64,000 nucleotides of DNA from the NCBI RefSeq assembly GCF_000786205.1, contig NZ_JROH01000010.1, forward strand, positions 1 to 64,000. The letters run 5' to 3'. Shown here piece by piece: positions 11,489 through 45,967 of this stretch (its first letter is position 1; each line of letters starts with the position of its first letter). Made by a program: the position numbers and the translations under genes. The DNA is from Sphingomonas sp. 37zxx. Its GTDB lineage: Bacteria > Pseudomonadota > Alphaproteobacteria > Sphingomonadales > Sphingomonadaceae. The notes under the pieces are model-generated. The model was not told the origin of the DNA. It searched no databases and saw only the letters and a list, made by a program, of their open reading frames with translations.

Positions 11489-11557
11489 CGATGTTGTGTC
11501 TGCCGCGCAGCATAGTCGAAACCGGGCATCACGCCATGGCGCTGTCGATTCGCTGCC

Positions 11558-12811: not shown

Positions 12812-12813
12812 CG

Positions 12814-14919
12814 TCAGAGCCGATAGCCGGCCTCGAGGAAAAACGATCGTGGCTCACCGGGAAAATGCCCCCCGCGATCGTTGAATCCCGAAACCGCATA
12901 GGTCTTGTCGAAGATGTTATCGACGCGCAGCATCAGATTGACCGGCCCGCGCGCCAAGGTGACCGATCCATCGAACACAAAATAGGGCTGGATTCGCTGA
13001 TTGCTCAGACTGATGCGTTCGGAAACATAGTCACCGCCAAAGGCAAATGCCAACCCGGGCGCAGGCAATTGATAGCGCGTCCAAAAGCCAAGCTGATGCT
13101 CGGGCGCATTTGCGAACCTGTCGCCGACATTGTTGACGAAACCAGCCGAGCCGTTGGTGCGCGTGATCCGTGTATCGTTATACGCATAGGCAATCGTCGC
13201 CAGCCAATTGGGCGTGATGTCGGCAGCGATGTCGAGTTCGACGCCCTTGCTGACCACTTCGCCAAAGGACACGAAATCATCGATACCGTCGCCGGCAACA
13301 TCGCCGCGCGGATCGGGTTGCAGGATGTTCTGCCGCTTGATGCGATAAGCCGACAGGCTCGATTGCACCCGACCGTTCATCAGCGCGGTCTTCACGCCGC
13401 CTTCGATTATATCACCGGTCGTCGGCCCGAACGGGCCACCCGCCCGTACATCCTGAGAACCAATGCCCTGCGGCTCGAAGCTGGTGGCATATTGCCCGAA
13501 CAGCGAGATATCCTCGCGCACGCGCCAAACCGCGCCGCCGCGGTAGCTGATCGAATCATCGGCAAAGCTGGTGCCATCGCTGTCGTCTTCGAATTTGTCC
13601 TGACGAATGCCGCCGGTCAGGATCACCCGCCCGATCGTCACCTCATCGAGCAAATAGACCCCGCGACGATAGCCGCTGCCCACCGTCTGCGCATAGGCGG
13701 GCAGCGCATAGTTTTTCGGATCCGTCTGGCCATATACCGGATTATTCAGGGTCAGCGGCCCAGGCAGGCCGGGCCGCGGCGTCGCCGCACCGCGCAGCGC
13801 ACGGCCACCGAATACCGTATCGGCGGTGAAATAATCGAAGCCGGCGAGCACCCGGTTCGCGATGCTGCCCAAATTGGCCGACCAGACCAGATTGCCCCCC
13901 ACTGAATAGGTTTCCTGGGTCCGAAGCTGATCGCGAAATTCGCGGGTGATCAGGTCGATCACGCCATTGCCGTCGGTATCGACCAACAGACGCGGCTCGT
14001 GATAATTCTGCACCTCGCGGGCGTCATTATAGCGAAAGCCGATATCCAGCTTCAGATTGCGCGTCGGCTGAAACTCGCCGCGCACCTGTGCGACGGCGGA
14101 TTTCAAATCGAGAAAGTCGCTGGCCTCGTTGTGGTTCCACTGCCGATCCGCCAGAAAATTGCCGTCATTGTCGACCGGCACCCCGCGCAGCCGGTTGCCG
14201 CCCAGATTCTGCTCATAGCGCGTGCCCTGCACGATGATCCGCGCACCCGGCAGGTCCATCGCGACACTGCCATCGACAATAAGGGTTTCATTGTCGGCGT
14301 TCCAGCGCGGCAAATCGCGATTTTCATAAAATGCGCCGCCGCGAACCGACAATGTTTCGCTGATCGCGCCGGTGGCCTCGGCCTGGCCGCCGAAGCGATT
14401 GAAATTGCCACCCACGACGCGGACTTCGGCAAAGCCGGTGCGGCTGGGCTGTTTGGTGACATAGTTGAACAAGCCGCCCGGCGCGCCGGGGCCGTACAAC
14501 ATGCCCGCAGGCCCTTTTAGAAACTCGAGCTGCTGCACGTTGAACAATTGCGGCACCGAAAAGCCAGCATAGGGATCACCCCGCAGCCCGTCGTAAAAGA
14601 TTTCTTCCTGGCGAAATCCGCGCGCGGTCACCCCGGCATAGCTGAAAGCGCTGACGCCAGAGATGTTGCGATAAATGTCCTGCGCGTCGCGCGCGCCCTG
14701 ATCGCGGATCAACTGTTCGGTTAGGGTCGTCACCACCAGCGGGCTGGTCAGCGGATCGCCCGGCAATTTGCCGACCTGCACTTCGTCGGCACGATAGAGA
14801 TTCTCGACCCGGCCAGTGACGACGATATCGGCCTGCGCTTCTTCGTCGGCCACCTCCTGCGCCGTCGCGGGCGAACAGGCGAAACAAATCAGGCCGGCAA
14901 TCCAACAACGCTGCAACAT
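12814..14919 (-). CDS. TonB-dependent siderophore receptor
   Basis: A 701-aa outer-membrane receptor. The ATG has an AGGGGAGG ribosome site directly upstream. Signal peptide at residues 1-20 (ending ATAQ), TonB box region DIVVTGR, plug with QLIRDQGARDAQDIYRNISGV and VQQLEFLKGPAGMLYG, then a barrel ending FFLEAGYRL. The plug motifs and size match ferric-siderophore receptors (FhuA/FpvA-like group). A Fur-box-like site lies immediately upstream, supporting iron-repressed expression together with the PepSY gene. Confidence 0.94.
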   Translation of the reverse strand: MLQRCWIAGLICFACSPATAQEVADEEAQADIVVTGRVENLYRADEVQVGKLPGDPLTSPLVVTTLTEQLIRDQGARDAQDIYRNISGVSAFSYAGVTARGFRQEEIFYDGLRGDPYAGFSVPQLFNVQQLEFLKGPAGMLYGPGAPGGLFNYVTKQPSRTGFAEVRVVGGNFNRFGGQAEATGAISETLSVRGGAFYENRDLPRWNADNETLIVDGSVAMDLPGARIIVQGTRYEQNLGGNRLRGVPVDNDGNFLADRQWNHNEASDFLDLKSAVAQVRGEFQPTRNLKLDIGFRYNDAREVQNYHEPRLLVDTDGNGVIDLITREFRDQLRTQETYSVGGNLVWSANLGSIANRVLAGFDYFTADTVFGGRALRGAATPRPGLPGPLTLNNPVYGQTDPKNYALPAYAQTVGSGYRRGVYLLDEVTIGRVILTGGIRQDKFEDDSDGTSFADDSISYRGGAVWRVREDISLFGQYATSFEPQGIGSQDVRAGGPFGPTTGDIIEGGVKTALMNGRVQSSLSAYRIKRQNILQPDPRGDVAGDGIDDFVSFGEVVSKGVELDIAADITPNWLATIAYAYNDTRITRTNGSAGFVNNVGDRFANAPEHQLGFWTRYQLPAPGLAFAFGGDYVSERISLSNQRIQPYFVFDGSVTLARGPVNLMLRVDNIFDKTYAVSGFNDRGGHFPGEPRSFFLEAGYRL

Positions 14920-18385: not shown

Positions 18386-18826
18386 ATGCGCCGTTTTTCC
18401 CTTTCCATCATCATGATGGCTATGATGGCCGGCTGCGGCCCCTCCGATCAGATTAGCGTCGAGGAGGCATGGATTCGCCTGCCGGCGGTCGCGGGACGTC
18501 CGGGTGCCGCCTATTTCACGATCGAAGCCGCTGGCCGCGACGATGCACTGACCGCTGCATCAACGCCGGTCGCCAAGCGCGCCGAACTGCATGAAAGCAT
18601 GGCGGGCACCGGCGGCATGATGACGATGAACGCGCTTGAAACAGTGCCGCTGAAGGCAGGCCAGCCGGCCAACTTTGCGCCCGGTGGCCGCCATGTGATG
18701 CTGTATGACATGACCAGGGGGTTGCAGCCTGGCAACGAGACCCGGCTGAAGCTCAGCTTCGCCTCGGGCCGCGAAATCGATGTGCCCGCGCGCATCGTCG
18801 CAGCCGGCGAAAGCGCGCCAAAGTGA
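18386..18826 (+). CDS. Copper chaperone PCu(A)C family lipoprotein
   Basis: A 146-aa exported protein. The ATG at 18386 has AGGAAGG 6 nt upstream; the longer frame crosses the dnaK promoter and is rejected. Residues 1-17 form a lipoprotein signal with lipobox MAGC, so it is probably membrane-anchored in the periplasm. The copper motif is present as H(E)S..M..HVM: H-X11-M-X21-H-X-M, one residue longer in the first gap than the usual HX10M. Family members hand Cu(I) to the CuA centre of cytochrome oxidase. The vgr-related gene follows 43 nt later. Confidence 0.88.
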
Positions 18827-31602: not shown

Positions 31603-33699
31603 ATGACCAAGACCTGCCTGCTGGCGTCCGTCGCCGCATTTTGCCTGCCCGCCATCGCCCATGCCCAGGATGCGCCGCCCGAGCGCTGGACGCCGGATGA
31701 TATCGTCGTCACCGGCGAGCGCGAAACCTATCGCACTGATGAAGCCAGCGTCACCCGCACGCCCGTGCCGCTGATCGAGACGCCGCAGTCTATCCAGGTG
31801 CTGACCCGTGCTTTCATCCGCGACCAGGAACTGAACACACTGGACGAGGCGCTGCGCAACGTGTCGGGCGTAGTGCCGACGCTCCCGTCTGAAGCCGTGC
31901 TGGCGAACCCGATCGTCCGCGGGTTCGAGGCCGAAATCTTTACCGATGGCCTAATTGGCTATGGTGACACCGCCGTCATCGATCCCGCGTCTTTGTGGAA
32001 TGCAGAACGGGTGGAGGTCGCCAAAGGCCCCACTTCTACCTTGTTCGGCGGCGGCACCGGATCGCCACTCGGCGGGCTGATCAACATCGTGTCGAAGACC
32101 GCCAATGACACCCGAGCCTTTGCCTTCCGCGTGCGTGCCGGGAGCTTCGACGAGTATTCGGCGGCGGCCGATGCCAATGTGCCGCTCTCCTCGACGCTCG
32201 CCATCCGTCTGGTCGGCGAGGCGCAGACCAACGGCGACTATATCGACGCCGTGAAGGTCGATCGCACCTTGATCGCGCCATCGATCCGCTTTGCCCCCTC
32301 GGACGGCACCGACATTGTCGCGCGGCTGACGCATACCCGTGTCGAGCAGCTCGAATATGCCGGTCTTCCCGCCCAGTTTCGCGACGACCCGCGTGTGGAT
32401 CGTGCCCGCTTCACCGGCGCGGTCGATGCGCCCCGCACGACGATCGATAATCTGACCTATCAATTGGAGCTGAAGCAGCAACTGACCGAGGGCCTGACGC
32501 TGAATGCGCGCCTGCGTCGCTATGAGAGCGCGTTCGACGAGCGGGCGACCACGCCGTTCTTCGGCTTCTACCCCTGCGGTGCGGCCTCGTTCCTGAACGA
32601 CACCTCCTGCCCGCAGGTCAGCGCACGCCTGCCCGCCGATATCGGCGAATGGACCGGTGACCTTTCGCTGACCGGCGAATTCACAACAGGCGCAATCGAG
32701 CATGTCGTGCTCGCAGGCGTGCAAGCCGACCGCACCGATTATGACGCCGCGATCGGCTTCACCCTCTTCACGCCTTTCGCGTTGGACTATGCCGGACCTG
32801 CGCGGGTTGGCGGCTTCACCGAGCCGACGCTGAACCAGTTCATTACCAACCGCTACAAGACCAATGCCGCCTATCTTCAGGATCAGGTGACGATCGGTCC
32901 GGTCCATCTGCTTGGGTCGATCCGTTATAGCGAGCTGCGGCTGGAGGAAGTGGCGGGCGGCGCGGGCAACAACCGCAGCTATCATGAGTGGGACCCCCGG
33001 ATCGGCGCGACCCTCGATCTAACCGAGGGGATTTCGCTGTTCGCGGGCTATGCGACCGGCTCGCGTCTCGCGATCTTCTTCAGCGGCGCGGAACCACCAG
33101 TTCCCGAACGATCGGAAAGCTTCGAGGGCGGTTTCAAGTTCGCGCTGGCAAGCGTCGGCCTGTCGGGCACGATCGCCGCCTATCGCATCGATCGCAGCAA
33201 CGTGCCAACGCCGGACCCCAATACGTTCGGCAGTTCCGTGCAGGTCGGCAAGCAGCGGAGCGAAGGCGTCGAGGCGGACCTGATCTTCGAGCCGACGCCT
33301 GCCTTCTCGTTGCTGGCGAGCTATGCCTATACCGATGCGCGCGTGCTGGCAGACAACGCCATTCCGGCGGGCAGTCGCCTGCCGCGCGTGCCCAAGCATA
33401 GCGGACGCCTTGCGGCGCGCTATCGCGTTCAGGACGGCGGTCTGAAAGGCCTTGAGCTGGGTGCGGGCGTCACCGCCAATTCGGGCGCGGTCATGACCCT
33501 GCCGACCGGTGCCAAGACGGACGGCTATGCGGTCGTCGACGCGCTCGCCAGCTATCGGATTGGGCAGGCGCGGATCGGCCTTCGCGTCGATAACCTGCTC
33601 AACACCGATTATTTCATCCCGTACCAGTATCTTGCGCAGGACGTCGTGCGGCCAGGCAATCCGCGCTCTGCTTTCGTCACCGTGGGGTTCGACCTGTGA
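31603..33699 (+). CDS. TonB-dependent siderophore-type receptor (island A, receptor 1)
   Basis: 698 aa. The ATG at 31603 follows GCCGGAG at a normal distance; an in-frame TTG five codons upstream is rejected. A GCGCGC/GCGCGC hairpin (31564-31579) precedes the ribosome site. Signal peptide to about residue 19, TonB box DDIVVTGERETYRTD, plug with IETPQSIQVLTRAFIRDQ, TLDEALRNVSGV and VEVAKGPTSTLFGGGTGS, barrel ending AFVTVGFDL. Receptor family for metal chelates; the copper-related neighbours suggest a copper chelate. Its stop overlaps the GTG of the DJ-1/PfpI gene. Confidence 0.93.
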   Translation: MTKTCLLASVAAFCLPAIAHAQDAPPERWTPDDIVVTGERETYRTDEASVTRTPVPLIETPQSIQVLTRAFIRDQELNTLDEALRNVSGVVPTLPSEAVLANPIVRGFEAEIFTDGLIGYGDTAVIDPASLWNAERVEVAKGPTSTLFGGGTGSPLGGLINIVSKTANDTRAFAFRVRAGSFDEYSAAADANVPLSSTLAIRLVGEAQTNGDYIDAVKVDRTLIAPSIRFAPSDGTDIVARLTHTRVEQLEYAGLPAQFRDDPRVDRARFTGAVDAPRTTIDNLTYQLELKQQLTEGLTLNARLRRYESAFDERATTPFFGFYPCGAASFLNDTSCPQVSARLPADIGEWTGDLSLTGEFTTGAIEHVVLAGVQADRTDYDAAIGFTLFTPFALDYAGPARVGGFTEPTLNQFITNRYKTNAAYLQDQVTIGPVHLLGSIRYSELRLEEVAGGAGNNRSYHEWDPRIGATLDLTEGISLFAGYATGSRLAIFFSGAEPPVPERSESFEGGFKFALASVGLSGTIAAYRIDRSNVPTPDPNTFGSSVQVGKQRSEGVEADLIFEPTPAFSLLASYAYTDARVLADNAIPAGSRLPRVPKHSGRLAARYRVQDGGLKGLELGAGVTANSGAVMTLPTGAKTDGYAVVDALASYRIGQARIGLRVDNLLNTDYFIPYQYLAQDVVRPGNPRSAFVTVGFDL

Positions 33700-34562
33700 T
33701 CGCCCGTGATCCGCGCGGCCCCGTCGCATCCGCCCTCAACGCGCCGATCGATCGGCGCGCTGCCTTGATGACCGCACTTCTCGGTGCGCTTGCCGCCAGT
33801 GGGGCCAGCGCGCAGGACAAACCGGCTGCTGACCCGCACGCCGGGAATGCAATGGACGCGATGCCGCCGGGCTGGGTGAAGCCCGACCAGATCGCAATGC
33901 TCTGCTATCCCGGCATGACGATCCTCGACCTAATCGGTCCGCAATATATGTTCGCGGCTCTGATGGGGGCGACGGTACATCTCGTCGGCAAGACGCGCGA
34001 TCCGATGACCAGCGACACCGGCGTCACGATGATCCCGACCACGACATTCGAGCAGTGCCCGAAGGACCTGACCGTCCTGTTCGTGCCGGGCGGCACCGCC
34101 GGCACGCTGGCGGCGATGCGCGATGACACGACGCGCAACTTCGTCGCCGATCGCGGTGCGCGCGCGCAATATGTGACGTCGGTCTGCACCGGCGCACTCG
34201 TGCTGGGTGCCGCCGGGCTGCTCAAAGGCTATCGCGCCACCACGCACTGGGCGGCGCTTGAAACGCTCACCGACTGTGGCGCGACGCCGGTGTCCGAGCG
34301 CATCGTGCGCGATCGCAATCGCATCACCGGCGCGGGCGTCACCGCAGGTCTCGATTTTGGGCTGACCATGGTCGCAGAACTGCGCGACGCGACCTACGCG
34401 CAAGGCGTCCAGCTCGGCTGCGAATATGATCCGCAGCCGCCGTTCAACGCAGGCTCGACCCGCACTGCGCCGGCCGAGGTGAAGTCGATCATGGCATCGA
34501 TGTACTCCGCATTCCCCGGTCAGGTGCGCGACGCCCTGCGCGCCACAGGAGCCGCCAAGTGA
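33696..34562 (+). CDS. Exported DJ-1/PfpI family protein (isonitrile-hydratase-like), copy 1
   Basis: 288 aa, GTG start overlapping the receptor stop. The first 40 residues look like a twin-arginine signal (DRRAALMTALLGALAASGASA). The mature part is a DJ-1/PfpI glutamine-amidotransferase-like fold: IAMLCYPGMTILDLIGPQ, VLFVPGGTAGTL, and the nucleophile elbow VTSVCTGALVLGAAGLL with the predicted catalytic cysteine, then GYRATTHWA. Isonitrile hydratase InhA belongs to this subfamily, as do the sensor domains of GlxA-type regulators, but no DNA-binding domain is present here. Export and linkage to metal receptors are unusual; function is inferred, not shown. Confidence 0.82.
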   Translation: MIARDPRGPVASALNAPIDRRAALMTALLGALAASGASAQDKPAADPHAGNAMDAMPPGWVKPDQIAMLCYPGMTILDLIGPQYMFAALMGATVHLVGKTRDPMTSDTGVTMIPTTTFEQCPKDLTVLFVPGGTAGTLAAMRDDTTRNFVADRGARAQYVTSVCTGALVLGAAGLLKGYRATTHWAALETLTDCGATPVSERIVRDRNRITGAGVTAGLDFGLTMVAELRDATYAQGVQLGCEYDPQPPFNAGSTRTAPAEVKSIMASMYSAFPGQVRDALRATGAAK

Positions 34563-34723: not shown

Positions 34724-35250
34724 GTTCCGATGCCATGCCCGCGCAAGAGCGGGACTTGCGCGCTGGCCCGTGGAACCCAATTCTAGCGTCCGATCGCGAA
34801 ATCCGGATGACCGCGCCCCGCTCCGCATTGCCCGTTCAGGGCAAGTATCTGCTGGGGGCGCTCGGCATCGTGGCCACGCTGCTGTCGCTACGATTCGTGG
34901 TACTCGGCGCCTGGCCCGTGCTCATCTTCATGGTGCTCGATATGGGCGCGCTGGCGGTAGCGTTGCATATCTTCGGCAAGGCAGCGGTGCCTGAGGAGCG
35001 ATTGCGCGTCGCGGACGGCAAGGTCGAGCTTTTCCGGCTTGACGGGCGCGGTCGCCAGTCGCGGATCTCGCTGCCGGCTTTCTGGACCAGGCTTGAGGTA
35101 TCGAGCTACTCCGAATGCGACTGCAACCTGTGGCTGGTGTTCCGCCACGAGCGCCATGCTGTCGGGTCATGCGTTTCGGCTGCCGAACGGCGGGTGTTGA
35201 TCCCGCGCATCAGCGCCGCGCTCGCCAGCGCACGCAGCCGCGACGCATGA
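34720..35250 (+). CDS. DUF2244 domain membrane protein
   Basis: 176 aa. After a polar N terminus there are two adjacent hydrophobic segments (KYLLGALGIVATLLSLRFVV and WPVLIFMVLDMGALAVALHI), then a soluble beta-rich tail with FWTRLEVSSYSECDCNLWLV, fitting DUF2244. Start and stop both overlap neighbours by 4 nt (ATGA). DUF2244 proteins have no defined function. In this operon it precedes a PepSY protein and may assist membrane metal or redox steps. Confidence 0.78.
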   Translation: MSSDAMPAQERDLRAGPWNPILASDREIRMTAPRSALPVQGKYLLGALGIVATLLSLRFVVLGAWPVLIFMVLDMGALAVALHIFGKAAVPEERLRVADGKVELFRLDGRGRQSRISLPAFWTRLEVSSYSECDCNLWLVFRHERHAVGSCVSAAERRVLIPRISAALASARSRDA

Positions 35251-36389
35251 GAACGCGCACACGCATCGTGCTGCGACAATTCCACCTTTGGCTAGGGTTG
35301 TCGCTTGGCGGACTATTCGCGTTGCTGGGTGCGACCGGCTCAGCCTTGGTGTTTTACATCGAAATCGACAGTGCGCTAAATCCAGCCGTCGAGGAGCGAG
35401 TGAGCACGGCAGCACCGGGCTGGACCTCGCCGGTCTGGGATCGTGCGCTCGCCACCGGGCGAGCACGCTGGCACGATCCGCATGGCAGCTGGTCGCTCGA
35501 AGCCACCGGACAAGGCGGCGCGATCCCTGCGCGCTATTACCCATCAGATCATCACAGTCATCACGCCGAGCGCGAGATGGTCTGGTTTTCGGCCGACGGC
35601 GCCCGCGTGCTGCGTGCCGAACCGTGGGGCGGCTATCTGATGAGCTGGCTTTATGAGCTGCACATGCACCTGCTCGCCGGCGAAATCGGCAGCCAGATCG
35701 TCGGTTGGGCGGGCTTCGCGATGCTGGTGCTGCTGGTCAGCGGCATCATCGTGTGGTGGCCACGAGGCAGCTGGCGCAAAGCGCTTGCGTTCAAGCGAAG
35801 GGCTCCGCCGATCCGCCGCCTGCGCGATCTTCACAAGCTCGCGGGTGTTTGGAGCATGGCATTGCTCTTCATCCTTGTCGGCACCGGGGCTCTATTGGCG
35901 TTGCCAGCGGTCAAGACCCAGGTGCTGACCGCCGCAATCACCGCGCCCGACGAGGTGCCGGACCCGCAATCGAAGGCATCGAGCGGTCGGCAGATCGCGG
36001 TATCGCAAGCGCTGGCCGCTGCGCACCGTGCTGTTCCCGAGGCGCGGCTCGCCTTCATCGACGTGCCCGGCATGGGGTCCGAGCCATTTCGCATGCGCGT
36101 CCAGTTTCCCGGCGACCCGCATTACCGCTTCCCGAGCAGCTTCGTCTTCGTCGATCAGTATTCCGGTGCCGTGCTTGCCGTCCACGACGTCCGGCGCGGC
36201 AATGCCGGGACAACCACTGCCAAATGGATCCGCGTCCTCCACGACGGATCGGTCGCGGGTCTTGGCACCCGCATCCTCGCCATCATCCTCGGTCTCGTGC
36301 CCCTCGCGCTCTTCGTGACCGGGTTCCTCCACTGGCGCCGGCACCTTGCTGCCCGCGCCCAATCACATGCAACAGGGAATTTCTCGTGA
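35247..36389 (+). CDS. PepSY-associated transmembrane protein with His cluster
   Basis: 380 aa. Membrane helix near the N terminus (RQFHLWLGLSLGGLFALLG), a periplasmic PepSY region, paired helices around LYELHMHLLAGEIGSQIVGW and LRDLHKLAGVWSMALLFI, and a final helix. The periplasmic loop contains YPSDHHSHHAER, four histidines in five positions, a plausible copper or iron site absent from the copy at 11558-12811. It overlaps DUF2244 (ATGA) and the following receptor (GTGA). Likely a membrane partner of the receptors, possibly a metal reductase; that role is inferred. Confidence 0.88.
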   Translation: MRTRTRIVLRQFHLWLGLSLGGLFALLGATGSALVFYIEIDSALNPAVEERVSTAAPGWTSPVWDRALATGRARWHDPHGSWSLEATGQGGAIPARYYPSDHHSHHAEREMVWFSADGARVLRAEPWGGYLMSWLYELHMHLLAGEIGSQIVGWAGFAMLVLLVSGIIVWWPRGSWRKALAFKRRAPPIRRLRDLHKLAGVWSMALLFILVGTGALLALPAVKTQVLTAAITAPDEVPDPQSKASSGRQIAVSQALAAAHRAVPEARLAFIDVPGMGSEPFRMRVQFPGDPHYRFPSSFVFVDQYSGAVLAVHDVRRGNAGTTTAKWIRVLHDGSVAGLGTRILAIILGLVPLALFVTGFLHWRRHLAARAQSHATGNFS

Positions 36390-38533
36390 AGTCATCGTTC
36401 ATCGCCATCGCCACCTGCCTTGTCGCGTCGCCTGCGCTAGCTCAGACCGCAGATGGCTCAGCCGACCGCGCTGATCGTGACATCATCGTCACCGGCCAGC
36501 AACTCGAGAAGGAGACGGAAGTGTCGGGTCGCCTTGGCTTGACCATCCGCGAGACCCCGGCCGTGGTCGATGTCGTCACGCAGCAGGACTTCCAGATCCA
36601 GGGTGTCCGCAACGCGATCGAGGCGATGAACGCAGCACCCGGCGTCGCCTCCGGTAACCTGCCGGGCTCGATCGGCTCGGTCTCGATACGCGGCTTCCAC
36701 CGCGCGGTTAACTATCTCTATGACGGCGTTCGCATGGCCAATTCCGACGTCGGCCTACGCAACTGGGATGCGTGGTCGTTCGAGCGGATCGAGGTCATCA
36801 AGGGGCCGGCCTCGGTAACCTCGGGCGAAGGCGCACTTGCCGGCGCGATCAACTTCGTGCCCCGCCGCCCCAATCTCGACGGGCCGAGCGGCGAAATGCT
36901 GGCCAACTACGGCAGCTTCGACACCGGACGGCTCGCCGCGGACGTAAACCTGCCTTTGGGCAAGACCGTGGCCGTGCGCGGCGACGTCTCGTTCTCGCGG
37001 TCTTCCGGCTGGATCGACGATACCGACAGCCACACCTTCGCCGCAACGGGGTCGCTGCTATTCAAGCCTAGCGACCGCTTCTCGCTCGTGGTTTCGGTCG
37101 CCCATTTCGAGGACCGGTTCAAGACGGCCTATTATGGTACGCCGGTCATTGCACGGGCGCTGGCGCGCGATCCATCGTCGGCGGTGTCGGGCAGCTCCGG
37201 GCTGGTGCTCGACAAGGCGATGCGCAAGACGAATTTCGGCTATACAGACGGCAGCGACGGATCGACAACGACCTGGCTGCGCGCGCGCGGCGAATACGCA
37301 CTCACCGACACGCTGAAGATCGTCAGCGACACCAGCTATTACGACAGCTTCCGGGACTACAAGAATGCCGATGAGTATAGCTTCAACGCGGGTACCGGAC
37401 GGATCGGCCGCGGTGCGACGTTCATCAGCCACGATCACCGATATTGGAACCAGCGCCTGCATCTCGCCTTTGACGGCCAGATCGCCGGGCTTCGCAATCG
37501 GTTCACGATCGGTGCCGAATATGGCGAGACCGACTTCTTCACTGTGCGCCGCTTTGGCACCGGCACCCCGCTCGACCCGTTCAACCCGGTCCGCGGCACC
37601 TTCCCCGCCGACACGCCCGCCAATTTCGCGACCCGCCAAGACGTCACCGCGAAGGTCGATGCGGTCGCGATCTTCGCCGAGAACGCACTCAACCTGACCG
37701 ACGAGTGGCTGGTCGTCGGCGGCCTTCGCTATGACTATGTGAAGCTCGACCGCCGCGTTCTCAACGCTACCAACGGCGCGGTCCAGACCTACGGCCAGAG
37801 CTATCACCCGATCTCATGGCGGGCGGGCACGGTCTATAGCATCACACCGCGGACCCAATTGTTCGCGCAATACACATATGCGGTGACGCCGGTCAGCGGC
37901 CTGCTGTTCCTGAGCGCGACCAACGCCAGCTACAAACTGACCACCGGCCGTTCTTACGAGGCCGGAATTAAGACCTCGCTGACCGGTAGCGGCGTTGAGT
38001 TGACCGCCTCGGTCTACAACATCGAGCAGGACGATATCCTCACCCGCGATCCGATCAACCCTGCGGTAGTGTTGCAAGGTGGTTCCCAGCGATCGCGCGG
38101 GGCGGAACTTTCGCTGAACCTGCCAGTCACGCCAGAACTGAACGTAACGGCGAGCGGCACGTTGCTCGACGCCAAATATCTGCAGCTGATCGAAGCCGGG
38201 GGCCTCAACCGTGCCGGCAACCGGCCGCAAAACGTGCCCGAGCAGCTCGCCGATCTTGTCGTGACCTATTCGCCCAAGGCGTTGCCGATTACGCTGGTCG
38301 GCAGCGTTCGCCACAATGGCGATTTCTACACCGAGACCGCGAACGTCACGAAGGTCAACGGCTTCACGACGGTCGATGCGGCGGTGTCGTCGAACGCGTC
38401 ATTCGGCACGCTGACGCTGCGCGGTCGCAATCTCACCGACGAATTCTACGCCGACTGGTCGGGCTACGCCTCAGGTCTCGTCTTCATCGGCGCGCCGCGC
38501 AGCGTCGAGCTGTCGTTCACCCGGAAATTCTGA
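36386..38533 (+). CDS. TonB-dependent siderophore-type receptor (island A, receptor 2)
   Basis: 715 aa, GTG start overlapping the PepSY stop. Signal peptide VKSSFIAIATCLVASPALAQ, TonB box RDIIVTGQQLEKETE, plug with IRETPAVVDVVTQQDFQIQG, NAIEAMNAAPGV and IEVIKGPASVTSGEGALAG, barrel ending SVELSFTRKF. Translational coupling with the PepSY gene suggests the two work together. The longer upstream frame within the PepSY gene is a shadow. Confidence 0.93.
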   Translation: MKSSFIAIATCLVASPALAQTADGSADRADRDIIVTGQQLEKETEVSGRLGLTIRETPAVVDVVTQQDFQIQGVRNAIEAMNAAPGVASGNLPGSIGSVSIRGFHRAVNYLYDGVRMANSDVGLRNWDAWSFERIEVIKGPASVTSGEGALAGAINFVPRRPNLDGPSGEMLANYGSFDTGRLAADVNLPLGKTVAVRGDVSFSRSSGWIDDTDSHTFAATGSLLFKPSDRFSLVVSVAHFEDRFKTAYYGTPVIARALARDPSSAVSGSSGLVLDKAMRKTNFGYTDGSDGSTTTWLRARGEYALTDTLKIVSDTSYYDSFRDYKNADEYSFNAGTGRIGRGATFISHDHRYWNQRLHLAFDGQIAGLRNRFTIGAEYGETDFFTVRRFGTGTPLDPFNPVRGTFPADTPANFATRQDVTAKVDAVAIFAENALNLTDEWLVVGGLRYDYVKLDRRVLNATNGAVQTYGQSYHPISWRAGTVYSITPRTQLFAQYTYAVTPVSGLLFLSATNASYKLTTGRSYEAGIKTSLTGSGVELTASVYNIEQDDILTRDPINPAVVLQGGSQRSRGAELSLNLPVTPELNVTASGTLLDAKYLQLIEAGGLNRAGNRPQNVPEQLADLVVTYSPKALPITLVGSVRHNGDFYTETANVTKVNGFTTVDAAVSSNASFGTLTLRGRNLTDEFYADWSGYASGLVFIGAPRSVELSFTRKF

Positions 38534-38557: not shown

Positions 38558-39277
38558 ATGCGTATCTTTCCCACGGTCCTGGCCACTGCCGCTGCGCTGC
38601 TGACCCCAACCATCGCATCGGCCCAGCAGGCGGCACCGGCAGCGTCACCGCAACCGGCAGCGTTCAACCTGCCGCCATTACCCTACGCCGCGAACGCGCT
38701 CGAGCCCGCAATCGATGCTGACACGATGACCATCCATCATGATAGGCATCACAAGGCCTATGTCGATGCGCTCAACAAGGCTGTGAGCGAGACCCCGACG
38801 CTGGTTGGCCAGACGCTCGAACAGATCGTCGCGCGTGCAGGCACGCTTCCGACCATCGTGCGCAACAACGCCGGTGGGCATTGGAACCACAGTTTCTTCT
38901 GGAAGACGATGGCACCGCCCGCCGAGACCGGCCAGCCTTCGCCCGCGCTACGGTCGGCGATCGAAAAAGGCTTCGGTTCGCTCGATGCCTTCAAGACGGC
39001 GTTTAAGGCCAGCGGCACAGGCCGCTTCGGCTCGGGCTGGGTGTGGCTGATCGTCGGCAAGGACGGCAAGCTCGCGATCACCTCGACACCCAATCAGGAC
39101 AATCCGCTGATGGACGTGGCCGAGGTGAAGGGCACGCCCATCCTGGGCAACGACGTCTGGGAGCATGCCTACTACCTCAAATATCAAAACCGTCGCGCCG
39201 ACTATCTGGATGGCTGGTGGCAGGTGGTCAACTGGAAGGCGGTCTCCGATCGCTTTGCTGCCGCGACCAAGCGCTGA
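38558..39277 (+). CDS. Exported Fe/Mn superoxide dismutase
   Basis: 239 aa with a signal peptide (residues 1-23, ending SAQ), hence periplasmic. The family hallmarks are present: LPPLPYAANALEPAIDADTM, the first ligands in MTIHHDRHHKAYVDAL, GGHWNHSFFW, and DVWEHAYYLKYQNRRADY holding the last Asp and His ligands. Ribosome site AAAAGGAAC. Periplasmic SODs of the Fe/Mn type are uncommon; it lies between two receptors in a copper-handling operon and may counter superoxide formed during metal reduction. Confidence 0.93.
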   Translation: MRIFPTVLATAAALLTPTIASAQQAAPAASPQPAAFNLPPLPYAANALEPAIDADTMTIHHDRHHKAYVDALNKAVSETPTLVGQTLEQIVARAGTLPTIVRNNAGGHWNHSFFWKTMAPPAETGQPSPALRSAIEKGFGSLDAFKTAFKASGTGRFGSGWVWLIVGKDGKLAITSTPNQDNPLMDVAEVKGTPILGNDVWEHAYYLKYQNRRADYLDGWWQVVNWKAVSDRFAAATKR

Positions 39278-39330: not shown

Positions 39331-41468
39331 ATGACCTTTTCCCGACGATTGCTGTTGCTCACGACCTGTCTTGCCACACCGGCGTTCGCGCAAACGACGC
39401 CTTCCGAAGATGCAACGCGTCGCGACGACATCGTCGTCATCGGCCAGAACTTTGTGGTCGCAGACAGCAGCGCCGCCACAAAGTCCGACGCCCCGATCCT
39501 GACGACGCCGCAAGCAATCTCGGTGGTCAACAGCGACTTCATCGATGCGCTCAACCTGCGCACGGTGGCGGAAGCGCTCAACTATACCTCCGGCGTGCGT
39601 GCTCAGGCATTTGGCAGCGACACGCGGATCGAATATTATCAGCTGCGCGGCTTCGCGAGCTCAAACTTCTACAAGGACGGTCTGGTTCTCTACAATTCGG
39701 GCGCGTTCCTGTCGTGGACTACGCCCGCCGAAGGGATCCGCCGATTGGAGGTGCTGAAGGGTCCGTCATCGGTCCTCTACGGCGGCGGCAGCGCCGGCGG
39801 AATCGTCAACATCGTCTCAAAAGCACCGACGCGCCGCACGATCGCAAACGTTGAGGCTGGCATCGACGAATATGGCAGCGTCTATGGCTCGGCAGACGTT
39901 GGCGGCGCGATTTTCGACACACTTGCCGTCCGCGCGAACGCGCTCGTCCGGCGTGGCGACACCCAAGTCGAACTAGCGGAGGACAACCGCACTTTTGGCG
40001 CTCTGGCGCTCGGCTGGACGCCGACCAGCGACACGACCCTGACGCTACGCACCAGCTATACGCGCGACCGGTCGCAACGGCCGACCGGGTTCGTGCCCTA
40101 TGCCGGCTTCGTCACCCCGCTGCCAGACGGCCGGCGCATCCCGATCGACCTGTTCGTCAGCGATCCTTCGGTCGATGCCTACGACCGTGACCAGTTCGAG
40201 GCGGGGTATACGCTCGAAACGAAGCTCGGAGAAAATCTGCGCTTCGTATCCAACGGCCGCTATGCCGAGATTGACCTCTATTATGCGGGGCTGTTCGGAT
40301 CATTCACTGGCAACCCGGCGCTGGTCGATGGCCGCTATGTCCTTAACCGCGGCAATTCGACGCTGGATGCCGAACTCGACAACATTACGGTCGATAACCA
40401 CCTCGACGCGACGTTCGCGACGGGGCCTTTGAAACATCAGATCCTCGGCGGCATCGACTACAGTTACTCTCGCGCGCGCAACACCAACCGGATGGGGACC
40501 GCGCCACAGCTCGACATCTTAGCACCGGTCTACAATGTGGTCATTCCGGCGTTGGGTGCAGCCGGCACGACACGACAGAATCTCGACCAGACTGGGCTAT
40601 ATCTGCAGGACCGGATCACTATTGGCGGTCTGAATGCCCTGCTTTCAGCCCGTCACGACTGGGTCGGCATCACCGCGATCGCCGCGAGCGGCGCGGCGAC
40701 ACGCGGCGAGCCTGCGAAAACGACGTATCGTGCCGGTCTGAGCTATGCGACGTCGTTCGGTCTCGCACCGTTCGTCAGCTATGCGACCTCGTTTACGCCG
40801 GTCATCGGCGTCGAGCTGGCGACGCGGCAGTATTTCCGTCCCGAGACGGGTGAGGCGTGGGAAGCGGGCCTGAAATATCAGGCCAGTGGCTTCCCGCTGC
40901 TCGCCACCGCTTCCCTGTTCTCGATCGAACGCGACGGGGTCGTCGTGTCCAATCCGATAGCCGGCTTCCCCACCAACCAGAGTCAGCTTGGCCTCGTCCG
41001 TTCGCGCGGCGGCGAGATCGAGGTTCAGGCGCGCCCGGTGCCTACGCTCAATATAACCGCCGCCTTGACCCGGTTCGAGATCAGAAACCGTGCATCGTCC
41101 AACACTCTCGCCGGGACAGTGGGCAAGACGCCAACCGCGACGCCCGAATTCACGGCCTCTGCCTTCGTGGATTACACATTGCCCGACGGCAGTTTCCTGC
41201 CTGGCTTCGGGCTCGGCGCTGGCGTGCGTCATGTCGGCCGGAGTTGGGCCGACACCGCGAACACGTTGCCGGTGCCCGCCGCAACGGTATTCGATGCGGA
41301 ATTCACTACGACCTCGGTGGATTTCGCATCGCGGGCAACGTCTCCAACCTGTTCGACAAGGCCTATGTGGGTGCCTGCCCCTCGGCCGGCACCTGCTACT
41401 CAGCCAACCTGCGCCGCGCGACGTTCAGCCTCGCCTATCGCTTTGGAGACGCCCGATTACCGAACTAG
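39331..41468 (+). pseudogene. TonB-dependent siderophore-type receptor (island A, receptor 3), frameshifted near C terminus
   Basis: From ATG 39331 the frame codes signal peptide, TonB box DDIVVIGQNF, plug (LTTPQAISVVNSDFIDALN, LEVLKGPSSVLYGGGSAGG) and most of the barrel. At about 41302-41305 the reading frame is lost: in the present frame translation continues as nonsense to 41940, while the -1 frame resumes a perfect barrel end (HYDLGGFRIAGNVSNLF, then FSLAYRFGDARLPN, stop 41468). A single missing C after GAATTC would explain it. Either a recent loss or a sequence error; the rest is intact. The true C terminus overlaps the next gene. Confidence 0.85.
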
Positions 41469-42277
41469 ATCGTCGCACTTTGCTTGCGCTCGCCGGAGTC
41501 GCGGGCATCGGCCTGCCGGCGCTTGCCGATGCGCAGACGCCGCCCGCCGTTTCGCCGGGTGCCCGCGATCCGATGGCGACCCCGCCGGACGCGCCGGTGG
41601 TCGCCATCCTGATCCACCCACGCATGGTGATGCTCGACCTGATCGGGCCGATGACCGCGCTCAACATTCTGCGCTGCCGGATCAACCTCGTCTGGAAGGA
41701 CAAGGTACCCGTCGTGACAGAGCTTGGTTTGCCGATCACTGCCACGCAGACCTTCGTCGAGTGTCCCCGCGATCTCGACGTGCTGATGGTGCCAGGCGGC
41801 ATGCTGGGTTCGGTGGCGTGCATGAACGATCCCGAGGTGATGACCTTCCTCGCCGATCGCGGATCGCGCGCGAAGTGGGTGACGAGCATCTGCACTGGTG
41901 GACTGACGATTGCTGCGGCCGGGCTGCTCAAGAGCTATGACGCCAATGCCACCTGGACGATCTCGCACCTGCTGCCGTTGATGGGCGCGCGCCATGTCGA
42001 CAAGCGCGTGGTGATCGACCGCAACCGCATGACCTGCGGCGGCGTCACCGCCGGCATCGACCTTGGCCTGACGCTTGCCGCGAAACTGCGCGGCGAAGAC
42101 GCGGCTAAGCGCGTCCAGCTCATCATGGAATACGCCCCAGAGCCGCCGTTCCAGAGCGGCACGCCCGCGCAGGCACCGCAAATCGCGGCTGCCATTCGCG
42201 AAGCGACGCCGTGGATGCAGTCGCAGGCCCGCGGCGCGGCTGAGGCAGCGGGCAAGCGGCTCGGGATATCATTGTGA
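41456..42277 (+). CDS. Exported DJ-1/PfpI family protein (isonitrile-hydratase-like), copy 2
   Basis: About 273 aa. The Tat-like signal (ELDRRTLLALAGVAGIGLPA) begins right at the end of receptor 3, but no ATG, GTG or TTG lies in frame before the twin arginine; the best candidate is ATT at 41456, six nt after GGAGA. The mature part has VAILIHPRMVMLDLIGPM, VLMVPGGMLGSV, and the nucleophile elbow VTSICTGGLTIAAAGLL. It pairs with copy 1, each following a TonB receptor, so the pair probably arose by duplication of a receptor/DJ-1 unit. Alternative: a start needing repair of the upstream frameshift region. Confidence 0.8.
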   Translation: MTELDRRTLLALAGVAGIGLPALADAQTPPAVSPGARDPMATPPDAPVVAILIHPRMVMLDLIGPMTALNILRCRINLVWKDKVPVVTELGLPITATQTFVECPRDLDVLMVPGGMLGSVACMNDPEVMTFLADRGSRAKWVTSICTGGLTIAAAGLLKSYDANATWTISHLLPLMGARHVDKRVVIDRNRMTCGGVTAGIDLGLTLAAKLRGEDAAKRVQLIMEYAPEPPFQSGTPAQAPQIAAAIREATPWMQSQARGAAEAAGKRLGISL

Positions 42278-42306
42278 CCAGCCTCAACAACTTCAGGAGA
42301 CTTCAA

Positions 42307-43164
42307 ATGCGACCTGTCCTCATGGCCGCTATGACAGCGGTGAGCCTGGGCCTCGCTGCCCCTGCACTGGCGCAGCAGGCCCAGCCTGTTGAAATCCGCT
42401 TCGATGCGCGAGTCGGCGCCGCGTCGGCACGCTGCGGACAGGCCTATGCCGGCGTTGGCACGTCCAAGGCGGGGCTGCGGTTTCAGGACATCCGCTTCTA
42501 TGTGTCGGCGGTGCGGCTGATCGACGCGCGCGGGGGAGAGGTGCCGGTCACCCTGATCCCCGATGACCAGTGGCAGAACGATCAAGTGACGCTCCTGGAC
42601 TTCGAGGACCGCACCGGCAACTGCAACGGCAGCGCGGGCACCAACATGGCGGTCCGCGGAACCGTGCCCAAGGGCGATTATCGCGGCGTTGTATTCGAAA
42701 TTGGCGTACCGCAAGCGATCAATCATCAGGATCCGACGCTCGCGGCATCGCCGCTCAACGTCACCGGCATGACCTGGCCGTGGCGGATCGGCTACAAGTT
42801 CACCGGCGTCGATATGGAAACCAGCGGCGGTGCGGGCGGACCCAGTGCCGCGACCGGCTTTTCCATTCATCTGGGGAGCACCGAATGCGCCGACGGTCCG
42901 CCCATGGCCGCACCGAAGATCGCTTGTGCCAACGCCAATCGCCCGACCTACCGGCTAAGCGGGTTCGATCCGGCAAGATCCGTGGTCGTTCTTGACATCG
43001 GCGCGCTGCTGGCGGGCACCGACATCACCGTGAACGCGCCGAAATCGGCATCGGGCTGCATGTCGTTTCCCGGCGATGGCGATTGCGGCGCAATCTTTGA
43101 CCGACTGGGGCTTGCCTGGGAAGGAAAGGCCTCGGGCGGACAGAAGTGGGTGCGGGCCGATTAA
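42307..43164 (+). CDS. mbnP: MbnP-family copper-binding protein (four-Cys metallo-mystery pair)
   Basis: 285 aa. The ATG at 42307 has AGGAG 7 nt upstream; a GTG at 42274 overlapping the previous stop is the other option. Signal peptide to about residue 23 (PALAQ). Cysteines occur in ARCGQAY, GNCNGS, TECADG, KIACAN, SGCMSF and GDCGA; the signature segments RFQDIRFYVSAVRLID, MTWPWRIGYKFTGVD and GFSIHLGSTEC identify the TIGR04052-type family. In methanotrophs the partner MbnH oxidises a tryptophan of MbnP to kynurenine, creating a high-affinity Cu(I) site. The partner follows directly. Confidence 0.9.
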   Translation: MRPVLMAAMTAVSLGLAAPALAQQAQPVEIRFDARVGAASARCGQAYAGVGTSKAGLRFQDIRFYVSAVRLIDARGGEVPVTLIPDDQWQNDQVTLLDFEDRTGNCNGSAGTNMAVRGTVPKGDYRGVVFEIGVPQAINHQDPTLAASPLNVTGMTWPWRIGYKFTGVDMETSGGAGGPSAATGFSIHLGSTECADGPPMAAPKIACANANRPTYRLSGFDPARSVVVLDIGALLAGTDITVNAPKSASGCMSFPGDGDCGAIFDRLGLAWEGKASGGQKWVRAD

Positions 43165-43166
43165 CG

Positions 43167-44357
43167 ATGCGACGGATATCGCATCTTGCCCTGCTGGTGT
43201 CGGCACTGATTCTGGCGTTCAGCGTCTCCCACGCCCAGCAGCGCGCGACCGGTCTGGGGCCGATCGATGCGCTGGTCGCCAGCGCCTATGATTTCGGACT
43301 GCCCGGCTGGGCACCAAAGCCTTTGGAGCCCGCTGCCAACCGGACAACGGTGGCGAAGGTCGAGCTTGGTCGGCACCTGTTCTACGACAAGCGACTGTCG
43401 CTCGACGGATCGATGGCGTGTGCAAGCTGCCATCAACAGGCATTGGCCTTTACCGATGGCCGCGCGACATCACCCGGCGTCACCGGCCAGATGACGCCCC
43501 GCAACGCTATGTCGCTTGCCAATGTCGCCTATTTCCCGGTCCTGACCTGGGGTAATCCGCTGCTAAAACATCTCGAGCAGCAGGCGCTCGTTCCGCTGAT
43601 CGGGCAGGAACCGGTCGAACTGGGCCTGGCCGGCAAGGAAGGCGAGATGATCCGCCGGCTCGCCGCAGAGCCGGTCTACGGCAAGCTGTTCGTCGAAGCC
43701 TTCCCCGAAGCGAGGGGCGAGATTTCACTAGCAACGGTGGTGCGCGCACTGGCGGCGTTCCAGCGATCGCTGATCTCGCTGCGCTCGCCCAATGACCGAT
43801 ATCGCTATGAAGGCGATGTCGATGCGATCCCGGAAAGCGCGATCCGTGGTGAGGCGCTGTTCTTCTCCGAGCGGCTCGAATGCCATCACTGCCACAACGG
43901 TATCAATTTCGCCGACACGGTGCTGCACGAACGCAACAAGGCTGGCGAGGTCGCCTTCCACAACACGGGCCTCTACAATATCGACGGCAAGGGCGGCTAT
44001 CCCGCCCCCAATTTCGGCATCGCCGAGATCACCGGACGGCCCGAGGACATGGGTCGTTTCCGAACGCCCAGCCTGCGAAACGTCACGGTCACGGCACCTT
44101 ATATGCATGACGGATCGATCGCCACGCTGGATGAGGTCATCGACCATTACGCAGCGGGTGGGCGCACGATCGCGTCCGGCCCTAATGCCGGTGTCGGCCG
44201 AACCAATCCGCTCAAAAGCTCGTTCGTGCCGGGGTTCAGCATTACCAAAGCGGAACGCGCGGACTTGATCGCTTTCCTGACCTCGCTGACCGACGAGCGG
44301 TTCCTGACCGATCCGCGGTTCAGCGATCCTTGGCTCAAGACGGAGAAACCCAAATGA
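43167..44357 (+). CDS. mbnH: MbnH-type di-heme cytochrome c peroxidase/MauG family protein
   Basis: 396 aa, ATG 43167 just after the MbnP stop. Signal peptide ends about residue 24 (SHAQ). Two c-type heme sites: CASCH (about residue 90) and CHHCH (about residue 240), plus LGRHLFYDKRLSLDGS and APYMHDGS typical of MauG/CcpA-like di-heme proteins. Paired with MbnP it would carry out tryptophan oxidation on its partner. The stop overlaps the copC ATG (ATGA). Confidence 0.92.
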   Translation: MRRISHLALLVSALILAFSVSHAQQRATGLGPIDALVASAYDFGLPGWAPKPLEPAANRTTVAKVELGRHLFYDKRLSLDGSMACASCHQQALAFTDGRATSPGVTGQMTPRNAMSLANVAYFPVLTWGNPLLKHLEQQALVPLIGQEPVELGLAGKEGEMIRRLAAEPVYGKLFVEAFPEARGEISLATVVRALAAFQRSLISLRSPNDRYRYEGDVDAIPESAIRGEALFFSERLECHHCHNGINFADTVLHERNKAGEVAFHNTGLYNIDGKGGYPAPNFGIAEITGRPEDMGRFRTPSLRNVTVTAPYMHDGSIATLDEVIDHYAAGGRTIASGPNAGVGRTNPLKSSFVPGFSITKAERADLIAFLTSLTDERFLTDPRFSDPWLKTEKPK

Positions 44358-44710
44358 CCGGTGCACGCTACGCAATCGCCGCCATGTTGATGCTGTCGAC
44401 GCCGTTTTCATCGGCGTTCGCCCATACGGCGCTCAAGAGTTCCAATCCGGCCAGCGGAAGTGTCCTGACGCAATCGCCGCCGACGCTCGTGCTGAACTTT
44501 ATCGAGCCATCGCGGCTGACATCGCTTGTCGTCGTCACGGCGACGGGCGAACGACGCTTGCCATTCGGGCCAACTGGCAGCGGAGTGACCTTTACTGCGC
44601 AAAAGCCCGGCTTCGTGCGCGGTCGCAACGAGATACGCTGGCGAGCCCTATCCCGCGATGGCCACGTGATCGAAGGCAGCATCATCGTCGTGCTGCACGC
44701 ACCGGCATAA
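44354..44710 (+). CDS. copC: CopC-family periplasmic copper protein
   Basis: 118 aa. Signal peptide ends ...SSAFA, and the mature N terminus is HTALKSSNPASGS, with the copper-ligand histidine at its first position as in CopC. The cupredoxin-like fold continues with LNFIEPSRLTSLVVV and ends RALSRDGHVIEGSIIVVL, where the DGH motif supplies further ligands. ATGA overlap with the mbnH-like gene and 3 nt to copD. Confidence 0.92.
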   Translation: MTGARYAIAAMLMLSTPFSSAFAHTALKSSNPASGSVLTQSPPTLVLNFIEPSRLTSLVVVTATGERRLPFGPTGSGVTFTAQKPGFVRGRNEIRWRALSRDGHVIEGSIIVVLHAPA

Positions 44711-44713: not shown

Positions 44714-45967
44714 ATGTTAGAAGCCCTTGCGGCCGTCATCAAGGGCTTGGGCTATGCGGCCGCGCTGACCGCGGCCGGGACCACGCTTGCGCGGTCGACG
44801 CTGGCGCGCGGCTTGCCCATGCCCATACCCTCCCTGGACCGGTTGATCCGCTGGGCCGGCTTGCCGCTTGCAACTGCGATTTCAGGCACTGCGCTGCTCT
44901 TTTTCCTGCGGCTCGGCGGCGATGCAGATACCGAAACGCTAGGTGCGATCTTCCTATCTCCACTCGGGCTCGCCCTCGCGATGCAATTTGCGGGCGGGCT
45001 TTGGCTAGCCTTCACCGCCCATCGCCCGATCGCAATCGTCGGCGCGCTGCTTGTCATAATCGCATTCGGCGTGGTCGGTCATTCAGCGACACGCGGCGTC
45101 GTATCCTCCGCCACGGTGGTACTTCATGTCGCTGCCGCTGCATGGTGGCTCGGCGGTCTGTGGGCACTGCTGCTCGCAAAGCGAAGACTGCCGGAAAGAT
45201 CTTTGCCGCAACTGGTCGTCCTATTCAGCCGCCAGGCCGTGTGGATCGTCGCTGTTCTGCTACTCGCTGCACTGACCACCGCAGCGTTGATCCTCGACTT
45301 CCAGTTCGATCTTGCACGCGACTATGATCGGGCACTGCTGACCAAGCTGGGCCTGACACTCGCACTGCTCGCACTGGCGGGCTTCAACAAGCTGATCGTC
45401 GCGCCGCGTCTTGTCTCGCAGCCGGCGGCCGGTTCATGGTTGCGACGCACGGTCCTGTTGGAGCTTTTGCTGTTTTCGGCAATCATGGCGACCACCGCTT
45501 TCGTCACGACCTATCTGTCGCCGCACGATGCGAACGAGCAGCCCGTGCATCACGAAGGTCAGCCGGGCGCGCGCGGACCTGTTGCCATCATCCAGCCGTG
45601 GGCACCCGCCATGCCAAGCGGTGCGAGTACAGGTGCCGGCTATATGACCATTCTGAACAACCAGCCGGTCGAGGATCGTCTGATTTCGGCCAGCAGCCCG
45701 TGGGCGGAGCAGGTGACGCTGCATCGTTCCTCCACGATCGACAGTGTATCGCGCATGCGCGAGGTGGACAGACTCAGCATTTCCGCGAAGACCGAAATTG
45801 TGATGGCACCCGGCGGACTGCACCTGATGTTCACCGGCTTGTACGCACCATTCGTCGCAGGAGACGTCGTCCCGCTGACATTGGTGTTTGAACGCGCCGG
45901 ATCAGTTGCGGTCCAGCTGAGCGTTCAGCAGCTCGGCAGCCGGCCTGTTGCAGAACACAACCATTAG
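44714..45967 (+). CDS. copD: CopD membrane protein fused to a PCu(A)C copper-chaperone domain
   Basis: 417 aa. Residues 1-270 are an eight-or-so-helix CopD module (VVGHSATRG and HVAAAAWWLGGLWAL, with the conserved histidines). After a linker with HDANEQPVHHEGQ, residues 290-410 form a complete PCu(A)C domain whose copper motif is exact: H(RSSTIDSVSR)M, then 21 residues, then HLM, i.e. HX10MX21HXM. Thus an inner-membrane copper importer carries its own periplasmic chaperone. It closes the copper run; the att repeat is 117 bp downstream. Confidence 0.9.
   Translation: MLEALAAVIKGLGYAAALTAAGTTLARSTLARGLPMPIPSLDRLIRWAGLPLATAISGTALLFFLRLGGDADTETLGAIFLSPLGLALAMQFAGGLWLAFTAHRPIAIVGALLVIIAFGVVGHSATRGVVSSATVVLHVAAAAWWLGGLWALLLAKRRLPERSLPQLVVLFSRQAVWIVAVLLLAALTTAALILDFQFDLARDYDRALLTKLGLTLALLALAGFNKLIVAPRLVSQPAAGSWLRRTVLLELLLFSAIMATTAFVTTYLSPHDANEQPVHHEGQPGARGPVAIIQPWAPAMPSGASTGAGYMTILNNQPVEDRLISASSPWAEQVTLHRSSTIDSVSRMREVDRLSISAKTEIVMAPGGLHLMFTGLYAPFVAGDVVPLTLVFERAGSVAVQLSVQQLGSRPVAEHNH

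Follow-up and report, generated by a model that had tools for sequence, protein, structure and literature searches.

A CopD membrane protein fused to a PCu(A)C domain in a putative copper acquisition cluster of Sphingomonas sp. 37zxx

Results

Gene Cluster and Fusion Protein

The window, a stretch of 64,000 nucleotides from Sphingomonas sp. 37zxx, carries a gene cluster whose final gene encodes a CopD protein fused to a PCu(A)C domain (Table 1). The reading frame of the fusion opens with an ATG at 44714, its stop codon ends at 45967, and no internal stop codons were found. Scanning the deduced protein against Pfam identified CopD (PF05425) at residues 167–263 with E 5.5e-11 and 43.2 bits (cut-off 32.1), as well as PCuAC (PF04314) at residues 294–400, covering profile positions 3–109 of 109, with E 1.3e-32 and 112.4 bits (cut-off 29.4). 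Both matches are far above chance level, and open reading frame and Pfam domains thus agree with the original prediction that one chain unites a CopD protein with a PCu(A)C domain of full length. PCu(A)C proteins as a class bind Cu(I) and deliver it to CuA. The copper motif HRSSTIDSVSRMREVDRLSISAKTEIVMAPGGLHLM begins at residue 337 and reads exactly HX10MX21HXM, as had been claimed for the C-terminal domain; the HX11M spacing ascribed to the free-standing lipoprotein was likewise recovered. In a family search of the 3.69-Mb host assembly (E up to 0.01), the fusion and this lipoprotein were the only PCuAC matches.

Table 1: Features of the copper-related cluster and of the free-standing PCu(A)C gene, in positions of the window.
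Feature	Position	Strand	Remarks
Free-standing PCu(A)C lipoprotein	18386..18826	+	HX11MX21HXM; outside the cluster
TonB-dependent receptor 1	31603..33699	+	
InhA1, DJ-1/PfpI, isocyanide hydratase relative	33696..34562	+	Twin-arginine N-terminus
PepSY_TM membrane protein	35115..36389	+	Pfam E 5.3e-53
TonB-dependent receptor 2	36386..38533	+	
Fe/Mn superoxide dismutase	38558..39277	+	Pfam Sod_Fe_N, Sod_Fe_C; signal-like N-terminus by eye
TonB-dependent receptor 3	39331..41468	+	Frameshift near 41295-41325
InhA2, DJ-1/PfpI, isocyanide hydratase relative	41456..42277	+	Twin-arginine N-terminus; start codon uncertain
MbnP-family copper-binding protein	42274..43164	+	TIGR04052, 277.4 bits (cut-off 140)
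MbnH-family di-heme enzyme	43146..44357	+	TIGR04039, 504.1 bits (cut-off 362.85)
CopC	44354..44710	+	Pfam CopC, E 2.5e-15 (scanned from 44366)
CopD::PCuAC fusion	44714..45967	+	417 aa; final gene of the cluster
CopD membrane part	44714..45505	+	Residues 1-264; eight hydrophobic segments; from Pfam, hydropathy, conservation and a low-confidence model
Variable His-bearing linker	45506..45574	+	Residues 265-287; from identity between carriers
PCu(A)C domain	45593..45913	+	Residues 294-400; Pfam; exact HX10MX21HXM

Pfam found CopD and PCuAC alone in the fusion chain; CopC and YtkA domains were absent, so that the architecture is not that of YcnJ. Against the NCBIfam CopD equivalog model NF033808 the fusion scored 68.5 bits, below the cut-off of 195, and it is therefore addressed here as a CopD-domain protein rather than as an equivalog of that CopD. 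It may nevertheless work in the manner of YcnJ. Hydropathy analysis demonstrated eight hydrophobic segments ahead of the PCuAC domain, in agreement with the eight helices of CopD. A ninth, weaker stretch at residues 373–391 (mean 1.43) lies within the Pfam PCuAC domain and is for this reason read as a strand of that domain. With summed lysine and arginine counts of 4, 1, 5 and 3 for the odd loops and of 0, 1, 1 and 3 for the even loops, the charge pattern places both protein ends outside the cytoplasm and the PCuAC domain in the periplasm. Most of 11 other CopD frames retain residues H123, H138, W145, K211, N225 and E250, which are also found in both enterobacterial CopDs aligned. In an AlphaFold model built from a four-row alignment (mean pLDDT 54.9) long helices were visible; a usable placement of the PCuAC part, with pLDDT below 50, was not obtained.

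Upstream of the fusion, the CopC stop codon ends 3 bases ahead of the CopD start, the MbnH stop overlaps the CopC ATG, and the InhA1 gene overlaps that of receptor 1 in GTGA. Judged by eye, mature CopC would begin with a histidine. The genes for MbnP and MbnH are adjacent and both products score above their NCBIfam cut-offs, as is expected of an MbnP/MbnH pair. Neither MbnB nor MbnC was detected among the 12 window proteins scanned (29.6–46 kb), nor was any efflux ATPase, RND pump, CopA oxidase or CopB. Receptor 3 is interrupted near its C-terminus by the frameshift listed in Table 1, which is either an assembly error or a recent loss; an uninterrupted relative with 67% identity adjoins the InhA2 relative in genome G033 (L132). 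In four of five records viewed (L133, L134, L135 and L136), genes annotated as "methanobactin export MATE transporter MbnM" directly follow MbnP and turned out to be MbnH homologues with 47–58% identity to MbnH of the window, so that the label looks wrong there.

Orthologues of the Fusion

A search of 295 genomes of the genus (E up to 1e-15) yielded one full-length orthologue, G231, with 60% identity, and two relatives in which the match ends early, namely, G141 (residues 1–367) and G172 (residues 1–339), the latter identified as Sphingomonas pokkalii L3B27 by the same match position. Extending the search to 397 genomes of the family (E up to 1e-28) added G605 (50%, residues 1–417) and G635 (49%, residues 1–410), which belong to another genus. 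No stop codon separates CopD from PCuAC in G231, G605 and G635, which thus carry intact fusions; together with that of the window, all four intact fusions exceed both Pfam cut-offs, and the HX10MX21HXM motif is present in these three orthologues and absent from G141 and G172. A frameshift joining two genes, for which related strains were to be checked, is not what they show, and in none of the six carriers does a stop codon divide the two domains into separate genes; in more distant genomes PCuAC and CopD are separate neighbours.

An artefact, in which a sequencing error or a recent in-frame deletion has run two genes together, might be suspected from the fact that only six carriers emerged among the genomes searched and that two of them are broken. 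The join is intact, however, in four separate assemblies from two genera at 49–60% identity, and the four fused PCuAC domains form one clade (100/96), which renders this explanation next to negligible. Read-through or assembly error was rejected on account of the intact orthologues in three other genomes from two genera.

Compared to the window, the three intact orthologues are 55–65% identical in PCuAC and 47–59% in CopD but only 14–24% in the linker; over linker residues 271–287, identity between carriers ranges from 14 to 35%. This pattern, with PCuAC better kept than CopD and the linker not kept, matches the expectation for a tethered domain that is functional. Even in G141 and G172, the frame continues from CopD into PCuAC, though similarity to that domain ends after residue 367 and residues 338-339, respectively. 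The first histidine ligand is replaced by glutamine in G141, where the domain end adjoins an opposite-strand frame that is integrase-like by eye; in G172, PCuAC ends ahead of a frame resembling, again by eye, a toxin-type repeat protein. Judged from these sequences, PCuAC has decayed in two carriers whereas CopD and its neighbours are retained, so that the domain looks dispensable there.

The order MbnP-MbnH-CopC-CopD::PCuAC was found in all six carriers, and in each of them TonB receptors lie upstream of this block. Matches to superoxide dismutase were obtained in five of the six, as a fragment in G172 and in two frames in G605; G141 gave none. In G605 (L064), both MbnH (11398–11410) and the dismutase (9000–9144) match as two overlapping pieces, which suggests frameshifts or assembly errors in this genome. 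In S. pokkalii, the frame with the dismutase fragment (L005, 3242–3562) closes with residues that look, by eye, like the C-terminus of InhA2, a junction suggesting a deletion that removed an InhA gene. Among 121 sampled genomes of the genus, MbnP (E up to 1e-20) was detected in two, both of them fusion carriers. In Paracoccus seriniphilus, PCuAC and SCO are encoded by genes of their own downstream of MbnP and MbnH.

Rarity of the Fusion

Within 100 relatives, the window genome included, the only two-domain match was the window's own gene. Among the matches listed from 398 genomes of the phylum, 20 loci with long PCuAC frames (325–626 aa) had either no or one hydrophobic segment in that frame, which means that CopD is absent from these 20 frames; several of them show a DUF1775-like N-terminus by eye. 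A single-sequence search for CopD was weak, detecting two of 20 loci known to contain it. In a profile search of loci L008–L061 and L066–L137, read together with the hydropathy result, CopD occurred in a PCuAC frame solely in the known carriers. Conversely, for 20 loci with long CopD frames among the matches listed from 299 genomes of the phylum, a single PCuAC match was obtained, located in a separate frame, and Pfam detected no PCuAC in the 10 of these loci scanned. None of 296 matching plasmid records spans 80% of the fusion query. A common but overlooked architecture was rejected, since among the matches listed none of the 20 long PCuAC frames and none of the 20 long CopD frames combines both domains. 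Separate PCuAC and CopD frames on the same strand and within 2 kb were seen by eye in at least 12 genomes (e.g., G753, G773 and G873), indicating that the partnership is common and the fusion rare. The fusion is not described in the literature searched, mostly freely accessible papers; all of its parts belong to known families.

Other partners of CopD were encountered in the course of these searches. CopC is present at the N-terminus of the CopD frame in L097, L100 and L103. A frame of L104 (569–2596, minus strand) contains CopD, a cytochrome c domain and then a weak AhpC/TSA match just under the cut-off (25.1 of 26 bits); the frame at 770–2758 of L107 (minus strand) resembles the L104 CopD frame by eye.

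Exported Relatives of Isocyanide Hydratase

InhA1 and InhA2, which are 44% identical, form two receptor/enzyme pairs within one island (31603–34562 and 39331–42277). Solved isocyanide hydratases were matched by InhA1 at E 9e-61 and by InhA2 at E 1.6e-49; for both, a structure labelled only ThiJ/PfpI (3ewn) is a closer match than InhA. The two proteins pass the Pfam model DJ-1_PfpI, whereas their NCBIfam matches are all below cut-off and include no hydratase model. A twin-arginine relative of isocyanide hydratase adjoining a receptor is present in four of the six carriers.

Fourteen copies picked for an apparent export signal were compared: two from the window, one each from G141, G605, G635 and G1129, two from Methylosinus plasmids, one from a Methylocystis plasmid, two from G110 and three from G033. 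A second copy from G1129 and one from G1242, whose matches likewise begin close to the N-terminus, lie outside this set. All 14 have two arginines followed by a hydrophobic stretch, which was in part the criterion of selection, and all retain residues equivalent to Cys101 and Asp17, a feature that played no part in the selection; a D-x-x-G-P pattern plus the cysteine also occurs in non-exported members of the superfamily and is thus weak as a mark of InhA. In the Pseudomonas enzyme, according to the accessible text of PMC10971408, Cys101 is the nucleophile and Asp17 the essential acid/base, and the exchanges G150A and G150T are reported to make the enzyme about sixfold slower. The Gly150 equivalent is alanine, glutamate or glycine among the 14 copies (alanine in InhA1), and that of Ile152 is valine throughout. 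In 11 copies the receptor gene or match ends at most 24 bases from the enzyme start or overlaps it, the exceptions being one copy from G110 and two from G033. At 11 loci chosen from 61 matches, with homologues that lack an export N-terminus by eye, the receptor and copper-gene queries found no match within approximately 7 kb. Five of 79 matching plasmid records were viewed; in two of them (L129 and L130) homologues without an export N-terminus are annotated without a receptor, and the annotation of L129 includes an RND pump as well as a P-type cation ATPase whose substrate is not given.

Pairs of this kind also occur outside the fusion carriers. G1129, from a different family of the same class, has on one strand a receptor-like frame, PCuAC, a receptor, exported InhA, a second receptor-like frame and a PepSY-like frame, the resemblances being partly by eye. 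A separate PCuAC gene of G110 lies beside a dismutase with 70% identity to that of the window, and two exported InhA copies are located nearby. The same PCuAC/InhA/receptor island of G110 (L131) contains a DUF2946 protein (8995–9423) and what by eye resembles a cytochrome bd operon (10658–13293). Three pairs on methanotroph plasmids (L126, L127 and L128) consist of a receptor and a twin-arginine DJ-1/PfpI protein beside two-component regulators; in the stretches viewed no copper gene is annotated, and one pair is close to methanol oxidation genes. These methanotroph pairs appear to count against a purely copper reading of the receptor/InhA pairs, as does the fusion block of G231, for which no InhA match was found in the 12 kb examined. 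For G172 the stretch examined begins inside the PepSY gene, and an InhA gene may lie further upstream. The Methylocystis iwaonis plasmid carries a methanobactin operon elsewhere (L137). A pair of receptor and isocyanide hydratase is not described in the literature covered, again mostly papers in open access.

Discussion

Bacterial copper import is poorly understood, the mechanism of CopD is unsettled, and so is the role of MbnP/MbnH outside methanobactin producers. Fusions that occur naturally hint at proteins that act jointly. We propose, with about even confidence, that in an operon for copper acquisition of the chelate type CopD::PCuAC makes up the inner-membrane end and that its PCu(A)C domain serves as a periplasmic hand-over arm. 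The TonB receptors would let chelated copper pass the outer membrane, and the copper would be released in the periplasm. There, MbnP/MbnH and CopC, whose genes and order are read from the sequence, may hold or pass the copper. Cu(II) would proceed from CopC to the eight-helix CopD, in which the conserved histidines of the family are kept, and CopD might move it inward by analogy with YcnJ. Tethered by the variable linker to the last helix and thus kept at the periplasmic side of the membrane, as sequence and charge pattern indicate, the PCu(A)C domain would act as a local relay, most likely from CopC/CopD to periplasmic copper enzymes, for example, the CuA of cytochrome c oxidase; capture for import is a less likely function. 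The domain would thus be an accessory arm outside the import path, and its loss in G141 and G172, which keep the rest, fits such a role. As partners of CopD include PCu(A)C, YtkA, CtaG and, in one frame found here, cytochrome c, CopD may represent a hub at which import meets the copper loading of oxidases; the oxidase assembly factor and the cytochrome c domain among these partners also count in favour of hand-over. The host genome has one strong Sco match over the cut-off. Owing to the free-standing PCuAC gene of the same genome, a CuA role of the fused domain may be redundant. Which way copper passes through CopD proteins is in general not a settled matter.

The original prediction went further in supposing that capture and passage are coupled in one chain, with the PCu(A)C domain catching periplasmic copper and feeding the CopD channel; the operon was overlooked in it. 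Much of its basis was confirmed: the single chain, the expected residues including the exact copper motif and the periplasmic placement all agree with it, as do the acquisition-type cluster and the good conservation of the fused domain where it is intact. Nevertheless, the domain is broken in two of the six carriers while CopD and its neighbours are kept, so that in these two coupled capture seems dispensable, and CopC, the usual donor of CopD, is encoded next door. YcnJ of Bacillus subtilis, composed of CopC, CopD and YtkA, offers the closest parallel that has been studied. According to the part of PMC13344008 that is accessible, its CopC and CopD sites are essential for Qox function, for which the C-terminal YtkA domain is not required; that domain supports the function of the Cta oxidase in a ctaK mutant, so that hand-over is no less likely a task for the arm than capture. 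Taken together, we regard a capture arm as possible but rather doubtful. Copper resistance, in which CopC, CopD and PCuAC would serve to store surplus copper or to tolerate it, with the receptors as unrelated neighbours, finds a precedent in a survey of beta-proteobacteria, which in its accessible text treats CopC/CopD as copper defence (PMC6769254). Such a role is improbable here, as none of the efflux and resistance proteins looked for turned up among the 12 proteins scanned, MbnP/MbnH and receptors accompany the block in every carrier, and the Bacillus work on CopD, as far as its accessible text goes, points to uptake (PMC13344008).

Besides the hand-over role of the fusion, the cluster invites a speculation on its substrate that we consider unlikely: the operon might import copper-isonitrile chalkophores of other microbes and break them. 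A TonB receptor would import the copper-isonitrile complex, the isocyanide hydratase exported by the twin-arginine route would turn the isonitrile ligands into formamides, thereby freeing copper in the periplasm, and MbnP/MbnH and CopC would take up this copper, which CopD::PCuAC would import or hand on. A search of the host genome for isonitrile synthase (PF05141) gave no match, and neither did the control genomes. In its accessible portion, PMC10792529 states that some isocyanide natural products bind copper and that isocyanide hydratase is thought to act in defence or self-protection. That putative exported InhA relatives may free copper for nutrition is our own idea. If it were true, isocyanide hydratases would gain a nutritional role, and we know of no earlier periplasmic copper release pathway that destroys the ligand. 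The cluster provides a testable idea of the way in which copper chelates delivered by a receptor might be opened once in the periplasm, and of what exported isocyanide hydratase relatives might do there.

Comparison with Known Systems

InhA1 and InhA2 resemble Pseudomonas InhA in strong matches and in the retained Cys101 and Asp17 equivalents; unlike that enzyme they have a twin-arginine N-terminus and adjoin receptors, and InhA1 has Ala in place of Gly150. In the proximity of a TonB receptor to MbnP and MbnH, the cluster is similar to the MbnT/MbnP/MbnH modules of methanobactin users. The pair MbnPH is known far beyond producers, as stated in the accessible part of PMC3621798, and receptors near MbnP were also found on plasmids of Trichormus, Methylocystis parvus and Ideonella. 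Unlike in those modules, CopC and CopD::PCuAC follow, isocyanide-hydratase-like enzymes accompany the genes, and MbnB/MbnC are absent among the 12 proteins scanned. CtiP of Corynebacterium glutamicum (CtaG plus CopD) also joins CopD to a copper-assembly factor of an oxidase, by the accessible account in PMC9145763, but its partner is the membrane domain CtaG. The YcnI-like DUF1775-PCuAC fusions, described in the available text of PMC8424229, likewise join PCuAC to another copper protein, although a DUF1775 domain rather than a membrane channel is the partner. With YcnJ, the fusion shares a CopD core followed by an extracytoplasmic C-terminal domain, which in YcnJ is tied to cytochrome c oxidase function (PMC13344008, accessible part), CopC as partner and a CopD histidine that is required in YcnJ (PMC13344008 and PMC12362106, both as far as accessible). 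It differs in that PCuAC takes the C-terminal place of YtkA, CopC is a separate gene instead of a fused domain, and MbnP/MbnH and TonB receptors, which the ycnKJI operon lacks, belong to the cluster.
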